Positions 8,968 through 26,871 of a stretch of DNA of 51,018 nucleotides are shown here, piece by piece. A program made the translations under genes and the position numbers. Under the pieces are notes generated by a model that saw nothing but the letters and a program-made list of their open reading frames with translations, had not been told where the DNA came from and searched no databases. Every line of letters starts with the position of its first letter. Position 1 is the stretch's first letter. The DNA is from a virus: positions 1 to 51,018 of IMG/VR virus record IMGVR_UViG_3300046028_005066; one strand, 5' to 3'.

Positions 8968-11073
8968 ATGGCAGATAATGAAAAACCCTGGATTCCAGGA
9001 GAAGAAAACGAGCGCACTATACCTCCTGTTAGTGTTACGGCCAAAGCGCCTACAGAGGCCGAAAAGGCAGAATATGAGGCAAATTTACCTTGGATACCTG
9101 AAGGTTGGGAAGCTAAAGATGTTGAAGGTGGCACGCCATCTTTTGAAAGTCCTGCCTTAACAACTTTTCTTGAAGGCGGCGTAGGTATGGGCGGCGGCGA
9201 TGAGCTAGCTGCCGGTATTGCCTATACAAAAGCCCGCGCGGCAGGTGCTAGCCATGAAGAAGCTTCATTAGCTGCAGCTAGAAGATTAAAAGCTGATCGT
9301 GAACAACGCCGCCAATATGCTGCTGAAAGCCCTTGGAAAGCCGGCTCATTAGAGTTAGCTGGTGGCATAATTTCAGGTCTTGGCGCCACGGGCGTAGCTA
9401 CTAAAGTAGCACCTCGCCTAATAGAAGCTGCAAAAGAGTCGCCTAGAGCAGCCGCAGCTGTATTAGGCGGTGGTGGTATGGGCCTTACAGGTGTACTTGA
9501 AGGCGAAGGCTGGGAAGATCGTGCAAAGCGCGGTTTAATTGGTGCAACAATTGGCGCACCTTTAGGCCTTGGCATGGATATTGCAGGTGATGTTGCTAAA
9601 ACAGTTTGGAATTACGGCACTCGTGCCATGGGTATTGGCAGTGGTGTTAAATATGCTAATACTGTTATTGCTGATGCATTAAAACGTGCAGGACTTACTG
9701 CAGACCAAGTTAGTGCTAAGCTAGCTCAATATAAAGATAGGCTTTTAACTGCGGCTGATGTAGATGAGCTATTTCAGCAAATTGCTAAAGAAGTATCTAG
9801 TGATACTGGTGTTACGCGTAGACAAGCCTCTAAATTTTTATTAGATCGTGAAGCAAATCGTACTGGCCGCATTGGCCAAGATGTAGATGAGCTAATCCAT
9901 GCTGGCGACTATTATACCGGTCGTGAAGCTGCTATGGCCGCTAAAAAAGCTAATGCTGAGCCTTTATATGAGTCTGCCTTAGGTGTACAACCTGTTATTA
10001 CAGAAGACTTATATAACTTGCTAACAAAAAGCCCATCTATGCGTAAAGCTTTTGAATTAGCCCGCTCTCGCCATCAAGATGAATTTCAAAAAGACTTGCC
10101 TGAATTATTTGTGGAAGTTAAGCCTGGTATTTATGAGCTTAAGACTGCGCCTGATGCGCGTACCTTACATCGTATGAAGCTAGCCTTAGATGATCTTATT
10201 GCTGATAATACTACTCGCAATGCTATTACTGGTGTTAAAACAGGTCAGCTTAATACTGATGGCCGTACATACCAAGGTCTTAAAACCAAGTTATTAAATT
10301 GGATGGACAATAATATTGTTGATGATAAAGGCGCTAAGCTTTATGCCAATGCACGTAGCACCTACGCCGGCGATGCGGCTATTATAGATGCTATGGATCG
10401 CGGCGCTTCATTATATAAGCTGCACCCTAATTCTATTGCGGCAGAATTTAAAAAGCTAGATCCTTCAGAAAGAGATGCCTTCCGTGTTGGTGTAGTTAAA
10501 GCCATTGAAGACAAAATGATGAATAATGCTGAAGGCGCGGCAGCTGTTTATAAAATCTTTGGTAAAACATCAAATAGCAAAGAATATGCACAAATAAAAG
10601 CTATTTTTGATAATCCAGCAGACTTTGAAACATTTAAACAAAGATTGCTTACAGAAATAGACATGGCAGGTACAGAAAAAATAGCTAAAACAAAATTAGC
10701 CTCATCAAACGCTACGCACGTAGAGCGCCCTGAATTTTATCCTGTTACTAAACGCCATTTTATACCACAATACTTTTTAGATGCAATAGCACCTAGCGAA
10801 AAAGAAAAAAACTTAATTTTAGATCGCGTACTAACGCCTTACCCCCAAGGTGCCGCGTTATTAAAAGAAGCTGAGCGCAGTGCAATACAGGGCCCATTAA
10901 GTAAAGCATGGGAATTTACAAGACCTGCACGTTTATTAAATCAGCCTTTAATACCAGGTTCTTATACGGGTGCTCGTGAGCCAAGCGTACCAGAAGAGCA
11001 ACAGCCGTTTGCGTTGCCTACACCGCAGCAAAATGTTTTAGAGGTATTAAAACCTCAGCAATATAGACCTTAA
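8968..11073 (+). CDS. Internal virion / ejection protein
   Basis: 701 residues. The N-terminus is acidic and Pro-rich with two similar PWIP segments (residues 7-10 and about 41-44). A Gly/Ala-rich hydrophobic zone (about 70-215) could insert in membranes, and the rest is long charged helices. It follows the previous gene by two bases and is the last rightward gene of this block. Its TAA shares the palindrome TTAA (11070-11073) with the stop of the convergent leftward gene. Function is inferred from position and composition. Confidence 0.6.
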   Translation: MADNEKPWIPGEENERTIPPVSVTAKAPTEAEKAEYEANLPWIPEGWEAKDVEGGTPSFESPALTTFLEGGVGMGGGDELAAGIAYTKARAAGASHEEASLAAARRLKADREQRRQYAAESPWKAGSLELAGGIISGLGATGVATKVAPRLIEAAKESPRAAAAVLGGGGMGLTGVLEGEGWEDRAKRGLIGATIGAPLGLGMDIAGDVAKTVWNYGTRAMGIGSGVKYANTVIADALKRAGLTADQVSAKLAQYKDRLLTAADVDELFQQIAKEVSSDTGVTRRQASKFLLDREANRTGRIGQDVDELIHAGDYYTGREAAMAAKKANAEPLYESALGVQPVITEDLYNLLTKSPSMRKAFELARSRHQDEFQKDLPELFVEVKPGIYELKTAPDARTLHRMKLALDDLIADNTTRNAITGVKTGQLNTDGRTYQGLKTKLLNWMDNNIVDDKGAKLYANARSTYAGDAAIIDAMDRGASLYKLHPNSIAAEFKKLDPSERDAFRVGVVKAIEDKMMNNAEGAAAVYKIFGKTSNSKEYAQIKAIFDNPADFETFKQRLLTEIDMAGTEKIAKTKLASSNATHVERPEFYPVTKRHFIPQYFLDAIAPSEKEKNLILDRVLTPYPQGAALLKEAERSAIQGPLSKAWEFTRPARLLNQPLIPGSYTGAREPSVPEEQQPFALPTPQQNVLEVLKPQQYRP

Positions 11074-11441
11074 AGTATTTTACTATAATCAGGGCCTACC
11101 CAACCGGCAGGTTTAATAACGTCATGCTTAGAACCTCGCTTGCTACCTTCGCCGTTTGGGCCTGCCTTTACTTTGCGCATATTACATGCATGTACTTCAT
11201 CCCACGCCGCTTGAAAGGGCAACCCTTGGAGATACGCCGTACCTAGCGCTACGTATACTAAATCAACTAAAGCATCTAACTGCCCGGCTAAATCATTTTT
11301 AGTGGCAGCTAAAAGATACTCATCTAGCTCTTCCTGCATAAACTTAATACGAAAATTTGATAGTATTACTGGCAAATTAGTAGGCCCACCGTTATAGTCT
11401 AAACCAAATTTTTCATGAAATTCTTTTATATCATTAAGCAT
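11070..11441 (-). CDS. MazG-like NTP pyrophosphohydrolase
   Basis: 123 residues of the all-alpha NTP pyrophosphohydrolase superfamily (MazG/PRA-PH type). The metal-binding pattern is visible: EELDEY (E37, E38, E41) in the first helix and DALVDLVYV (D56, D60) in the next. Such enzymes split dNTPs or NTPs to the monophosphate and pyrophosphate. With a dCMP deaminase and a dCMP-type ThyA relative upstream in the same operon, a dCTPase activity supplying dCMP is possible, but this is inference. AGGAG lies 5 nt before the ATG. It is the last leftward gene, meeting a rightward gene tail to tail. Confidence 0.8.
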   Translation of the reverse strand: MLNDIKEFHEKFGLDYNGGPTNLPVILSNFRIKFMQEELDEYLLAATKNDLAGQLDALVDLVYVALGTAYLQGLPFQAAWDEVHACNMRKVKAGPNGEGSKRGSKHDVIKPAGWVGPDYSKIL

Positions 11442-13508: not shown

Positions 13509-13907
13509 TTATTTATTATTAATTACTAATTGCGGCTTAGGTCTAAAGTTTAAGCCTTCAATTAGAACGTCTACTAACATTTTATTTTGAACATACGTAT
13601 ATGACATTTCAGGCGCATATCTACGTGTAGGTCCAGTTTTTTCTTTAATATCGTATGTCTTGTAATATAGTGTTTTAGCTAAATTTTGTAACTGCTTATG
13701 CTTAAGTCTTACGTACTTAAATTTCATACAATCTTGCGCAAATTGGCGGCCTTCGGGCGTTTTAGCAAGCCATTCTGCTTGACTAACTGGCGGTTGAGGC
13801 GGTTGCAATGGTGCGCGAGGTATTACTTTAGCTTTTGCCAAAGCTCTAATGTGCTCTGCAAATTCTTCAGATACTGTAATGCTTATTTTAACTTCTTTTA
13901 ATGACAT
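13509..13907 (-). CDS. Unknown protein of the replication operon
   Basis: 132 residues from the preferred ATG at 13907 (MSLKEVKISITVS), which has an AGAGA site upstream; a longer reading from 13943 would run further into the deaminase gene. The N-terminus looks like a short beta-helix segment (ISITVSEEFAEHIRALAKAK). A Pro-rich linker and a basic region (KYVRLKHKQLQNLAKTLYYK) follow. No known domain recognised. It overlaps the end of the dCMP deaminase gene by about 20 nt and precedes the primase-helicase, suggesting a replication accessory role. Confidence 0.65.
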   Translation of the reverse strand: MSLKEVKISITVSEEFAEHIRALAKAKVIPRAPLQPPQPPVSQAEWLAKTPEGRQFAQDCMKFKYVRLKHKQLQNLAKTLYYKTYDIKEKTGPTRRYAPEMSYTYVQNKMLVDVLIEGLNFRPKPQLVINNK

Positions 13908-14337
13908 TGTAATCTCTATATTGCTGCCAATTACGCCCGGCACGTTCCCATAACTCTTGCCCGGTTTGCCCTGTATGATTTTCTAAGAAAACTATACGCT
14001 TACAGGAGGTATTTAAAAGCATTTTTGTGCATCTAATACATGGGCTAAGCGTTACATAAACTGTATCAATAGCCCAAGCATCAGGGCATTGTAATAAAGC
14101 ATTAACCTCTGCGTGCACTGCTTCGCAAGAGTCTTGCCCTGGCGGCAGATCATGCCCTTTACAAGTATGCCCTTCGTTACAATGCCCTAAGCCTGCCGCT
14201 ACACCGTTATAGCCTGTGCCTATAATATGCCCGCGCTCATTTGTAAGCACGCAGCCTACAGCTTTACGTAAGCATGTAGATCGCCCACTTATTACTGCAG
14301 CTAGCTGGCTAAAATACGCATCTTTAGTGGGTCGCAT
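13888..14337 (-). CDS. dCMP deaminase (zinc-dependent)
   Basis: 149 residues from the ATG at 14337, which shares an A with the stop of the upstream ThyA-like gene (TAATG); an earlier ATG at 14370 lies inside that gene and is unlikely. The catalytic zinc site is HAEVNAL (His75, Glu77) with SPCIRC (Cys100, Cys103). Additional Cys/His residues (Cys22, Cys53, Cys59, His62, Cys71) resemble the second zinc site of T4-type enzymes. The usual reaction is dCMP to dUMP. T4-type dCMP deaminases are also known to accept 5-methyl-dCMP, which matters given the neighbouring enzyme. Confidence 0.9.
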   Translation of the reverse strand: MRPTKDAYFSQLAAVISGRSTCLRKAVGCVLTNERGHIIGTGYNGVAAGLGHCNEGHTCKGHDLPPGQDSCEAVHAEVNALLQCPDAWAIDTVYVTLSPCIRCTKMLLNTSCKRIVFLENHTGQTGQELWERAGRNWQQYRDYNVIKRS

Positions 14338-15143
14338 TATACGGACATTTCCGCTGAAATTGCAGGCCAAGGCTCATAGTTTTCTAAAGTAATATCCTCC
14401 ATAGTTAGTTCAAACATACTCTTTTTAGCCAACTTTAATGTAGGTAATTTTTTAGGCTTACGTGATAGCAATTCCGTTACCTGGTTTATATGGTTTAGAT
14501 AAATATGTGCATCACCTAATTGGAAAATTAAATATCGTGGATCTAAACCTACTTCTTGCGCTAGCATTGATAAAAGCACTGCGTAGCTTGCTACGTCAAA
14601 AGGCATACCTAAAAATAAGTCTACTGATCGCATGTCTACTCTTAAATCAAGGTGTTCATTTGACACATAGCATTGAAACAAAATATGACACGGTGGTAAG
14701 CACATTTGATCTAACTCTGCAGGTTGCCAAGCCGTAACTATATGACGCCGGCTATATGGATCGGCTTTTAAGTTAGCTATTAAGTCTGCCAATTGATCAA
14801 CTACATACCTAGTACCTTGCCATGCCCGCCATTGCACACCATAAATGCGGCCTAAGTCACCAGGAACTTGCGGGGACCAATAAGGGGCACTAGCGTTAGC
14901 ATCCCAAATTTTGACGCCCAGTTTATGAAAGTCTTCAATGTTGCTTTTGCCATGTATAAAGCATAGCAGCTCGCCAACTACCTGCTTAAAAGCTAAGCGC
15001 TTAGAGGTAGTAGCAGGAAAGCCATCGCGTAAATCAAAAGTTACTTGCGCGCCAAATACTGAAATAGTGCCAGTACCTGTACGATCCTTGCGCACTAAGC
15101 CTGTATCACGTACACGCTTAATTAATTCTAAGTAAGGTATCAT
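14337..15143 (-). CDS. ThyA-family dCMP/dUMP methyltransferase, Asp at specificity site
   Basis: 268 residues, full length for thymidylate synthase. Motifs: RTGTGT (21-26), GRIYGVQWRAW (98-108), DPYSRRH (128-134), catalytic Cys152 in LPPCHILFQCYV, phosphate-binding Arg172, Asp175, and GDAHIYLNH with His213 and Tyr215. At the position that is Asn177 in E. coli ThyA (PFNIASYA) this protein has Asp183 (PFDVASYA). In Lactobacillus casei ThyA (N229D) and T4 dCMP hydroxymethylase, Asp here gives preference for dCMP. The retained Trp and C-terminal tail (YEPWPAISAEMSV) favour methyl transfer over hydroxymethylation. Substrate is therefore inferred as dCMP. It starts in an ATGA overlap. Confidence 0.88.
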   Translation of the reverse strand: MIPYLELIKRVRDTGLVRKDRTGTGTISVFGAQVTFDLRDGFPATTSKRLAFKQVVGELLCFIHGKSNIEDFHKLGVKIWDANASAPYWSPQVPGDLGRIYGVQWRAWQGTRYVVDQLADLIANLKADPYSRRHIVTAWQPAELDQMCLPPCHILFQCYVSNEHLDLRVDMRSVDLFLGMPFDVASYAVLLSMLAQEVGLDPRYLIFQLGDAHIYLNHINQVTELLSRKPKKLPTLKLAKKSMFELTMEDITLENYEPWPAISAEMSV

Positions 15144-15409
15144 GCTTGCTCAACCTTAAGACGATTTAATACAAGCGTGCAGTAACCTATAATGTCTACA
15201 TAGTGATCTAGCTCATTTGGGTTGCCACATAATATGCGTGCCATTTTATGTGCTACCATGTCAAGGCACTCTTTTTGATCCATGTCTAACTCAACCCAAT
15301 TGGGTGAGTCACGCATATTATCTTTTAGCACTTGTGATGTATAGCTACTTACCTCAAAAGAGCCATGTGTTTTCTTACGCTCATCTAAGATGTTTTGAAT
15401 GTCAGTCAT
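15140..15409 (-). CDS. DUF6378-like protein
   Basis: 89 residues beginning IQNILDERKKTHGSF and containing MDQKECLDMVAHKMARIL and a GNPNELDHYVDIIGYC segment, the pattern I recall as DUF6378, a small helical phage family of unknown role. The acidic helices recall MazG-like folds, but the full metal-binding set is not clear. GAGG lies upstream of the ATG, which overlaps the previous stop (ATGA), and its own stop overlaps the ThyA-like start. Its position hints at nucleotide metabolism. Confidence 0.75.
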   Translation of the reverse strand: MTDIQNILDERKKTHGSFEVSSYTSQVLKDNMRDSPNWVELDMDQKECLDMVAHKMARILCGNPNELDHYVDIIGYCTLVLNRLKVEQA

Positions 15410-25114: not shown

Positions 25115-25322
25115 TTAATATGGCCTCCTCAATTAGCTCTTCGTCATTTGACATTATTGTGTAGGCAACCCCGTCGAGGCGCACCCAATTAATTTGTATA
25201 TCCCACTCGGCAGGACTATTGCCTGTACTATATGGGTCGGTAACATGGCTGGCGGTGTAGCTTACCTCTACGTCAAAGGGTTGCTTATCGTCATCAATTA
25301 GCTCAACATTTATGCGAGGCAT
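25101..25322 (-). CDS. Small acidic protein
   Basis: 73 residues from the ATG at 25322 (GGAG 8 nt upstream); the longer frame from 25364 would lie further inside the upstream gene. The product (MPRINVELIDDDKQPFDVEV and following) is beta-rich and acidic, ending in a helix EELIEEAILNDL. It may be a DNA mimic or anti-host factor, but nothing specific is recognised. Confidence 0.65.
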   Translation of the reverse strand: MPRINVELIDDDKQPFDVEVSYTASHVTDPYSTGNSPAEWDIQINWVRLDGVAYTIMSNDEELIEEAILNDLR

Positions 25323-25789
25323 GGCAATGTCTCCATGAAACTTGGCACGTTGCGCCCGGTCCACTTAGCTATATGGCTTTTGTATTGCTTATAGTAGAGT
25401 TGATAGGCTTGCACAGCGTTATCTTTGTGGCACTCATCGGGCATTGCTTGCGCAAAGGCCGTTTGTTTGGTGGCGGTTATTTGCGGTGGGCACGCAGCCA
25501 ATGACTCGATTATTTTTTGGCAGGCATGCACTTTTTTATAGCGGTAGGTATACTCTTTGCATAAGTTAAGGCCTAAGTTTACTAGCCATTGATAGTTAGC
25601 TTGCGAGGCACGCGCCCACACAGTACATGGGTGATTTGCATGCGTTGATTTGTAGGGCACAGGAATATCGTAGCTGGCATTGATTGTGCATAGCATTTGT
25701 GCTGTTTCAAGAGGCATCTTAACAACGTGTTTGTCAAGGTGCAGTTGTGCGGCAATTACAGGATCGGTATCCAATACAAAGATGTTCAT
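25310..25789 (-). CDS. Phage-conserved DKH-type protein
   Basis: 159 residues: FVLDTDPVIAAQLHLDKHVV at the start, HPCTVWARASQANYQWL in the middle, then KEYTYRY, and FAQAMPDEC and KWTGRNVPSF near the end. I recall many aquatic-phage relatives. The layout has been likened to pyrimidine-dimer glycosylases, but I cannot confirm catalytic residues. First gene after promoter C (AAGGA before the ATG). A divergent paralogue is at 21255-21722. Confidence 0.75.
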   Translation of the reverse strand: MNIFVLDTDPVIAAQLHLDKHVVKMPLETAQMLCTINASYDIPVPYKSTHANHPCTVWARASQANYQWLVNLGLNLCKEYTYRYKKVHACQKIIESLAACPPQITATKQTAFAQAMPDECHKDNAVQAYQLYYKQYKSHIAKWTGRNVPSFMETLPCLA

Positions 25790-25899: not shown

Positions 25900-26871
25900 T
25901 TAGGCAGCAATCAATATGCCAGGGTCGTTGGCCACAGCTAGTAGGCCGTTGAAAGCTTGTTGCTTAAGGTTGACGCCACCGTATAGCCAGCTTGCTTCTA
26001 GGCGACGGTCTTGTGACTTGCCCATATGCCAGTCTAGCATTTCGGTTGTGGCATTTAGCAGGCCCCACGCCGTACCTTGTGCTGAGTCGTACGCACTGCC
26101 TTTACCTTGACCGCTATACAACTGCAAGACTTTGGACACTTGCGTGTTGCCTTTCTCAGAGCTGTCCTTAAACAAGTTACGCACGAAGGCAATGGCTTGT
26201 TTGTCGGTCAGTCTTGTATCGGCTAATTGCCTTGCTTGCTCGCCAAATACGTCCCATGCTTCAGGCGTTAGGCCTAGCTCAGACTTAACGGTGTTAGCGT
26301 CAAATGTCGTACTATGCGCAACTTTAATGTCATTTAGCGCATTTTGGGAGCTTAGGTTCAACGTATTATTGCAGACAACACGAATGCTAGTGCGCCGCGC
26401 GGTGGTCTTTAAAGTCCCATCGCAGGCTGTAGCCAGCATAAGATAATCTTTTAGCACGTCTTTCTCGCCAATTTTAACCTCGTTGCCAGTGCGCGCAAGT
26501 GCCCAGTATTTAGCACCTCCGAATAGCACGCCAGCAGTTTCAAGTTCAAAGCCTTGGCCTTCAACTAAATCGCGAAAGAATTCTAGCACTTCCATGGGCT
26601 GCACAACTTTGTATTTGTTACCCACGACACCTAGCGCTATGCCAGTGTCTTCACGGTACAGCACTTGCTTAGAGCCTTGTTGCTCTATAGCATCGGCCGT
26701 GCGATACAGCACAGGGCTGCCCGCAATTTTAAAATTCATGCCGGACTCTTTTGCCCACGTTTCAAGTGGCGCGCCCTTTGTTAACGCCTGGCCTAGGCCG
26801 TGCCATGGGGTTTCCCCCACGTAGGCCATAGCACTGCGTCCGTCTACCATTGTTGCAATTTCATGAGCCAT
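25900..26871 (-). CDS. DUF932 phage/plasmid-like protein
   Basis: 323 residues. The N-terminus GRSAMAYVGETPWHGLGQAL and the later KTTARRTSIRVVCNNTLN block are the hallmarks of the DUF932 family (phage/plasmid-like TIGR03299). The family is common in phage early regions. It is thought to act in DNA metabolism, but its activity is not established. AAGGAG is 7 nt before the ATG. It follows the 26883 gene in the promoter D operon. No truncation is seen. Confidence 0.88.
   Translation of the reverse strand: MAHEIATMVDGRSAMAYVGETPWHGLGQALTKGAPLETWAKESGMNFKIAGSPVLYRTADAIEQQGSKQVLYREDTGIALGVVGNKYKVVQPMEVLEFFRDLVEGQGFELETAGVLFGGAKYWALARTGNEVKIGEKDVLKDYLMLATACDGTLKTTARRTSIRVVCNNTLNLSSQNALNDIKVAHSTTFDANTVKSELGLTPEAWDVFGEQARQLADTRLTDKQAIAFVRNLFKDSSEKGNTQVSKVLQLYSGQGKGSAYDSAQGTAWGLLNATTEMLDWHMGKSQDRRLEASWLYGGVNLKQQAFNGLLAVANDPGILIAA

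Follow-up and report, generated by a model that had tools for sequence, protein, structure and literature searches.

The question raised by the minus-strand gene at positions 14337..15143 of the window, by which the whole analysed stretch of 51,018 nucleotides of the viral record IMGVR_UViG_3300046028_005066 is meant, is which pyrimidine nucleotide serves as the substrate of a ThyA-family enzyme with Asp at the specificity position. The product of 268 aa, predicted here to be a dCMP C5-methylase from the PF00303 match and its residues, gave a full-length hit to Pfam Thymidylat_synt PF00303 (E 5e-97, profile search), matched PHROG 160 as well, and is labelled thymidylate synthase (TS) by NCBIfam TIGR03284, with 298 bits at a cut-off of 108. 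It is 46% identical to E. coli ThyA in alignment and 53% identical to Bacteroides phage ThyA. Residues Cys152 (the catalytic one, codon 14688..14690, minus strand), His153, Glu58, His213 and Tyr215 are the equivalents of Cys146, His147, Glu58, His207 and Tyr209 of the E. coli enzyme, and Trp80, Tyr101, Leu149, Arg172 and Asp175 (window numbering) are retained as well, while the protein ends in AEMSV, a tail of the TS type. The full-length profile, together with the catalytic Cys, Glu58, Arg126/127, His207 and Tyr209, places the protein in the ThyA/PF00303 superfamily. An earlier note, made from the letters alone, had given the gene the very same boundaries and had listed Cys152, His213, Tyr215 and the C-terminal closing tail as retained, and the E. 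coli alignment bears it out.

The specificity position is occupied by Asp183 (codon GAC, 14595..14597, minus strand), which the alignment sets at Asn177 of E. coli ThyA, just as the same note had claimed in naming it the replacement of the dUMP-selecting Asn. Among all solved structures, the best phmmer match was 1njc, which we take to be the engineered L. casei TS N229D, whose Asp shows in the phmmer alignment of PFDIASYA with PFDVASYA. According to mutant studies cited in PMC8670742, Asn at this site selects dUMP, and its exchange for Asp in the L. casei and E. coli TS shifts the preference to dCMP; the Asn at E. coli position 177 that goes with a dUMP-specific TS (EC 2.1.1.45) is thus absent from the window protein. 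The Asp is retained in four related contigs of 90-100% identity, and its codon is GAC both in the window and in the related contig L005, so that a sequencing slip is not the cause, and the dN/dS of 0.07 between the gene and its 90%-identical homologue in L005 indicates that the window ThyA is under purifying selection. In the virome contigs of the eLife MetaGPA study, position 177 was among the two residues most tied to cytosine modification, with Asp in the modified and Asn in the unmodified contigs, the other top position being 147 (PMC8670742). The window protein keeps His147 (E. coli numbering, as for positions 143, 165 and 177 below) and, therefore, belongs to the canonical-ThyA branch and not to the divergent branches. 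A further residue, beyond those listed in the earlier note, is Met171 (codon 14631..14633, minus strand; E. coli Gln165). It varies together with the Asp across the rows of the tree: position 165 is other than Gln in 29/43 Asp-type rows vs 2/58 Asn-type rows. As the hydroxymethylase-like proteins carry Met or Leu there in the family alignment, the change at position 165 is suggested to go with cytosine recognition. The window enzyme thus resembles L. casei N229D in being a canonical ThyA with a single Asn-to-Asp switch; the latter, however, is a laboratory mutant, whereas the former is natural, subject to purifying selection, and combines the switch with a second change, Gln165 to Met, and with a partner gene in its operon.

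Apart from the base that is bound, the residues around the catalytic Cys bear on what is added to it. The dCMP hydroxymethylases are marked by Asp/Glu at the third position ahead of the catalytic Cys and by Ser/Thr at the second position ahead of the active-site Tyr, and the TS enzymes have Leu at the former position, as described in the structure study of the T4 dCMP hydroxymethylase (PMC6400193). The window protein has Leu149 (codon 14697..14699, minus strand) and the stretch Arg99-Ile100-Tyr101, and its identity as a hydroxymethylase was rejected on this published signature. Leu is found at the same position in 45/46 aligned Asp-type ThyA proteins, and the hydroxymethylase-like proteins have Asp there (7/7) and Thr after the Cys. 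The residues expected of a dCMP methylase are present, namely Asp at 177 and, for the transfer of hydride as in TS, Leu143, Trp80 and the TS-type C-terminal tail; this set is a TS-derived definition, and the Xp12-type enzyme is without Leu143. Because Leu149 is present and the hydroxymethylase signature is lacking, methylation would be expected, and methylation of dCMP is the best-supported prediction for the window ThyA. The view that it is also the simplest reading of the gene, put forward earlier, gains support from Asp at 177, Leu149, the TS tail, Trp80 and His153, as far as residues can tell.

The adjacent gene (13888..14337, minus strand) encodes a dCMP deaminase family protein of 149 aa, assigned by PF00383 (E 8e-19), PDB matches and motifs. 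Its ATG (14337-14335) shares one base with the TAA that ends the ThyA gene (TAATG), an arrangement by which the deaminase is, on the evidence of the letters, translationally coupled to the ThyA gene. The solved-structure matches 2hvv, 1vq2, 4p9c and 2w4l are all deoxycytidylate deaminases, with that of S. mutans ranked first and that of T4 second, and the protein carries the features of DCTD, i.e., HAE and PCxxC for zinc as well as the allosteric GYNG as defined in PMC12088426. The dCMP deaminases generally accept 5-methyl-dCMP, and Tyr153 of the T4 enzyme is described as facing the C5 substituent (PMC12088426); the window deaminase has His121 at this site, where Tyr or His prevails among its relatives. 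Upstream of the ThyA gene, and overlapping its start by four bases, there is a gene for a DUF6378-like small all-helical protein (15140..15409, minus strand; PF19905, E 3.5e-5, just under the gathering score), homologues of which adjoin other Asp-type ThyA genes. The structure search with its predicted four-helix model found no PDB match, and the assumption of a MazG-like enzyme for this neighbour was dropped after the profile comparison and the structure search gave nothing. A MazG-like (PRA-PH) nucleotide pyrophosphohydrolase proper, with conserved EExxE and DALxDL (PF01503, E 2e-15), is encoded at 11070..11441 (minus strand), 2.9 kb downstream of the ThyA gene and not adjacent to it. Its homologues occur within the Asp-ThyA operons of other records, and the protein is a candidate for the dCTP-to-dCMP step, the substrate being assigned from the sequence.

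The larger open reading frames of the window, on a possibly incomplete contig, include none recognisable as ThyX, dihydrofolate reductase or dNMP kinase, and the scanned frames contained no second thymidylate synthase. The contig has no terminal repeats, so the genome may be incomplete. Avoidance of palindromes as a sign of modification was uninformative, the 4-mers and 6-mers occurring at 0.95 and 0.89 of the expected number, respectively. Elsewhere in the window, a weak match to a pyrimidine dimer DNA glycosylase (25310-25789, minus strand; PF03013, E 4e-6) and a DUF932 protein (25900-26871, minus strand; PF06067, E 4e-58) were observed.

A degenerate pattern of the Asp motif was run on 2.9 million viral contigs and 84,980 species genomes, which yielded 61 matching stretches in the former, about 42 of them ThyA, and 51 in the latter, of which only about 6 were ThyA. 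For comparison, 41 Asp-type IMG/VR records, 50 Asn-type controls obtained with the matching Asn pattern, and 50 hydroxymethylase-type records were used; most of them are contig fragments and related to one another, so the counts are not phylogenetically independent. A deaminase was present in 34/41 Asp-ThyA vs 8/50 Asn-ThyA records (Fisher p 8e-11, kinship ignored), which, along with the TAATG overlap, confirms the adjoining dCMP deaminase reported in the earlier note as more than a feature of one contig. In the Asp-type records, it mostly lies directly downstream, at times with a MazG-like gene between, and in the Asn-type controls there were 0 deaminases at <4 kb from the Asn-type gene; adjacency within 1.5 kb was found in 29/41 Asp-type vs 0/54 Asn-type cases (Fisher p 4e-15, kinship ignored). 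About 3/10 of the Asp-type enzymes have no deaminase inside 1.5 kb, and these fall mostly into the Asn-type part of the tree, several of them in large phages. ThyX was found in 0/41 Asp-type vs 17/50 hydroxymethylase-type records (Fisher p 1e-5; p 8e-4 with the Asp-type records of at least 30 kb only), its absence being weak evidence in any single case as most of the records are contig fragments, and a clear second TS-family gene occurred in only 1/41 Asp-type records. Such a contrast would be expected if 5-methyl-dCMP, unlike 5-hydroxymethyl-dCMP, can still become dTMP. The tree comprised 102 sequences, with the two diagnostic columns left out of the alignment; on it, 9 changes between Asp and Asn are required, strong branches forcing 3 of them, and the Asp-type records form clusters; a tree-corrected (paired) test of the association between Asp and the deaminase had <6 usable pairs and was underpowered.

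Several individual records were noted besides. On the viral contig L295 (G010:C1:12877-25692), the Asp-type ThyA is accompanied by a hydroxymethylase-like gene at a separate site, and it is the latter that the deaminase and a MazG-like gene adjoin. In two of the deaminase-bearing Asn-type records, L375 and L376 (G069, G071), the deaminase adjoins a second, hydroxymethylase-like TS, which suggests that a deaminase generally goes with a dCMP-modifying TS. Asp-type ThyA genes with no adjacent deaminase were noted in L293, L296, L298, L300, L304, L310 (where a dihydrofolate reductase adjoins) and L312, which include large phages of up to 374 kb and may represent separate origins serving DNA modification. 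In L091:4070-4978, a contig of a bacterial metagenome-assembled genome, the gene next to a dihydrofolate reductase is an Asp-type ThyA that has Pro at both 143 and 147. The Mediterranean uncultured phage AP013540 (L026:31557-33578) has the order pyrophosphohydrolase, dTMP kinase, Asp-type TS (Tyr at 147) and dCMP deaminase, and its kinase may phosphorylate a modified nucleotide, while L319:4504-7334 (G033), with pyrophosphohydrolase, kinase, Asp-ThyA and deaminase, combines the AXL3-type order with a canonical Asp-ThyA.

Among the closest known systems is that of the phage Xp12 (MT664984), represented here by the sequenced stand-ins DLP4, AXL1 and PaMx28. In the Xp12 DNA, 100% of cytosine is 5-methylcytosine (5mC) by LC-MS (PMC7653180), and the methyl group is introduced into the free nucleotide by a dCMP methyltransferase (PMC8543423). 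The phage deaminase yields dTTP from 5-methyl-dCTP with no need of the host (Wang and Ehrlich 1982; Kuo et al. 1982, cited in PMC12088426). Both fates considered in the earlier note, 5mC in the DNA and passage of a methylated cytosine nucleotide to a thymidine nucleotide through a phage deaminase, thus have a precedent in Xp12. The genus-mate DLP4 shows the gene order pyrophosphohydrolase, TS, deaminase and dihydrofolate reductase, and the TS of both DLP4 and PaMx28 has Asp at 177. The window shares with Xp12 and the Bosavirus group the Asp-type TS, the deaminase and an NTP pyrophosphohydrolase, the last being MazG-like and non-adjacent in the window; by prediction, it would also share the step from dCMP to 5-methyl-dCMP and the conversion of a methylated cytosine nucleotide to a thymidine nucleotide by the phage deaminase. 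However, the Xp12-type TS is only 31% identical to the window ThyA, with Pro at 147 (His in the window) and Asn at 143 (Leu in the window), the deaminases are only 30% identical, and DLP4 additionally encodes dihydrofolate reductase and ribonucleotide reductase. Furthermore, the DNA content and the deaminase substrate (5-methyl-dCTP) are established for Xp12, whereas the window is known from its genes alone.

In DNA polymerase and deaminase, the window is most similar, among cultured phages, to AXL3, PW916, MW202621 and Xp15; their replication genes match, and their TS was considered as a homologue and set aside, being 22% identical and hydroxymethylase-like. The T4 dCMP hydroxymethylase and the AXL3/Xp15 types share with the window the TS fold and the Asp for cytosine, and the AXL3/Xp15 types also Met at 165 and a neighbouring deaminase; all of them differ in having Asp at the third position ahead of the catalytic Cys, in the missing TS tail and in the frequent ThyX of their phages, and the AXL3/Xp15 types also in the Thr after the Cys. 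The TS homologue of AXL3 (L023) is annotated as thymidylate synthase, and that of PW916 (L024) as deoxyuridylate hydroxymethyltransferase; since each of these proteins carries the hydroxymethylase Asp ahead of the Cys and ThyX is present in either phage, the annotated substrates are probably wrong. In Xp15 (L027:11857-13500), a gene annotated as a Nol-like carbamoyltransferase lies three genes from the hydroxymethylase-like TS, and this gene set matches the described carbamoylation of 5-hydroxymethylcytosine (PMC8670742). The canonical phage ThyA proteins (T5-like, T4-like, of Bacteroides phages), with about 46-53% identity, have the same catalytic residues and tail as the window protein but differ from it in Asn at 177, Gln at 165 and the lack of a deaminase alongside, the gene being often near dihydrofolate reductase. 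The CMP hydroxymethylase MilA, another member of the TS superfamily, likewise has an Asp for cytosine, and prefers CMP through Lys133 and Ala176 (PMC5175136), where the window protein keeps Arg and Ser, as expected for deoxyribose. A search for cultured phages with this Asp-ThyA led, as the top two for the Asp-peptide query, to Cantare and RHph_N38, both of the Asn type, and in CRP-901, the nearest terminase relative (50%), neither TS nor deaminase is annotated.

From the gene, its residues, its coupling and the recurrent association, we infer substrate, product and fate as follows: the window ThyA is quite probably a dCMP methylase with the deaminase acting in the same, Xp12-like pathway. The exchange of Asn177 for Asp would let the enzyme hold and protonate cytosine instead of uracil, and the methyl group of methylene-tetrahydrofolate would pass to dCMP, probably supplied by the phage MazG-like pyrophosphatase, to yield 5-methyl-dCMP and dihydrofolate. 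Some of this 5-methyl-dCMP may then be phosphorylated and built into the phage DNA in place of cytosine, and/or some may be deaminated to dTMP by the deaminase of the operon. Given dCMP methylation with the deaminase in the pathway, the presence of 5mC in the virion DNA is somewhat favoured, and under the same premise a real flux from the methylated cytosine nucleotide to thymidylate, which is compatible with 5mC in the DNA, has slightly better than even chances. Against this explanation are the identity of only 31% with the Xp12-type enzyme, the lack of a recognised dNMP kinase and the clustering of the Asp-type records; besides, the hydroxymethylase-type phages also have a neighbouring deaminase, so that a deaminase alone is no proof of 5-methyl-dCMP as the substrate.

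The alternative that fares best accepts dCMP methylation and differs in the fate of its product: all 5-methyl-dCMP would be converted to dTMP, the virion DNA would contain ordinary cytosine, and the Asp-ThyA would be the sole TS, by which a group of uncultured phages would bypass dUMP entirely. This proposal is a tentative one, agreeing with the coupling to the deaminase, the GYNG motif and His121 at the T4 site that faces the C5 substituent, with the absence of ThyX from the Asp-type records and the single record with a clear second TS-family gene, and with the deamination of a methylated nucleotide in Xp12 (PMC12088426). The missing kinase also points this way, although it is a weak argument. 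Against the proposal, the MazG-like pyrophosphatase fits depletion of dCTP, and Xp12, the only phage with such genes that has been studied well, has 100% 5mC in its DNA; it is only together with full 5mC substitution that a methyl-first thymidylate route is known there. Next, an ordinary dUMP thymidylate synthase that tolerates the Asp, with the deaminase feeding dCMP to dUMP to dTMP, which is a sensible dUMP route, appears unlikely: the sequence is otherwise canonical in its identity to the E. coli and Bacteroides phage proteins and its His147, and scores far over the TIGR03284 cut-off, but the same substitution turns the preference of the L. casei and E. coli TS to dCMP (cited in PMC8670742), a neutral Asp would leave the adjacency of the deaminase unexplained, and Met171 co-varies with the Asp and occurs in the hydroxymethylases as well. 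Finally, it is very improbable that the enzyme is a dCMP hydroxymethylase in the manner of T4 gp42, providing the phage DNA with 5-hydroxymethyl-dCMP, for while Asp and Met at 165 are common to that group, no dihydrofolate reductase adjoins the gene and hydroxymethylation needs none, and there is a likeness to AXL3, PW916 and MW202621 in the deaminase and the replication genes, there is Leu149 and not Asp/Glu, no Ser/Thr-x-Tyr, His153 and not Thr, a TS-type tail, a low identity to the hydroxymethylase-like group, no second thymidylate synthase in the scanned frames of the window, and no ThyX in the Asp-type kin.

The pathway idea as such is not new, having been known in Xp12 since 1982. What appears to be new is a branch of enzymes in uncultured phages that are canonical ThyA except for the switch residue and the co-varying Met; judged from the genes, the Asp-ThyA appears to be recurrently coupled to the deaminase and to be the only recognised thymidylate synthase there. 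The one-residue switch in thymidylate synthase was reportedly engineered in 1992, and its natural counterpart appears to have arisen in phages, probably more than once, usually paired with a deaminase. If this is true, dozens of viral genes automatically labelled as thymidylate synthase would need to be re-read, and the Asp could be used, directly from the sequence, as a marker of phages with 5mC or with a second route to thymidylate, while such enzymes would be useful for the production of 5-methyl-dCTP.
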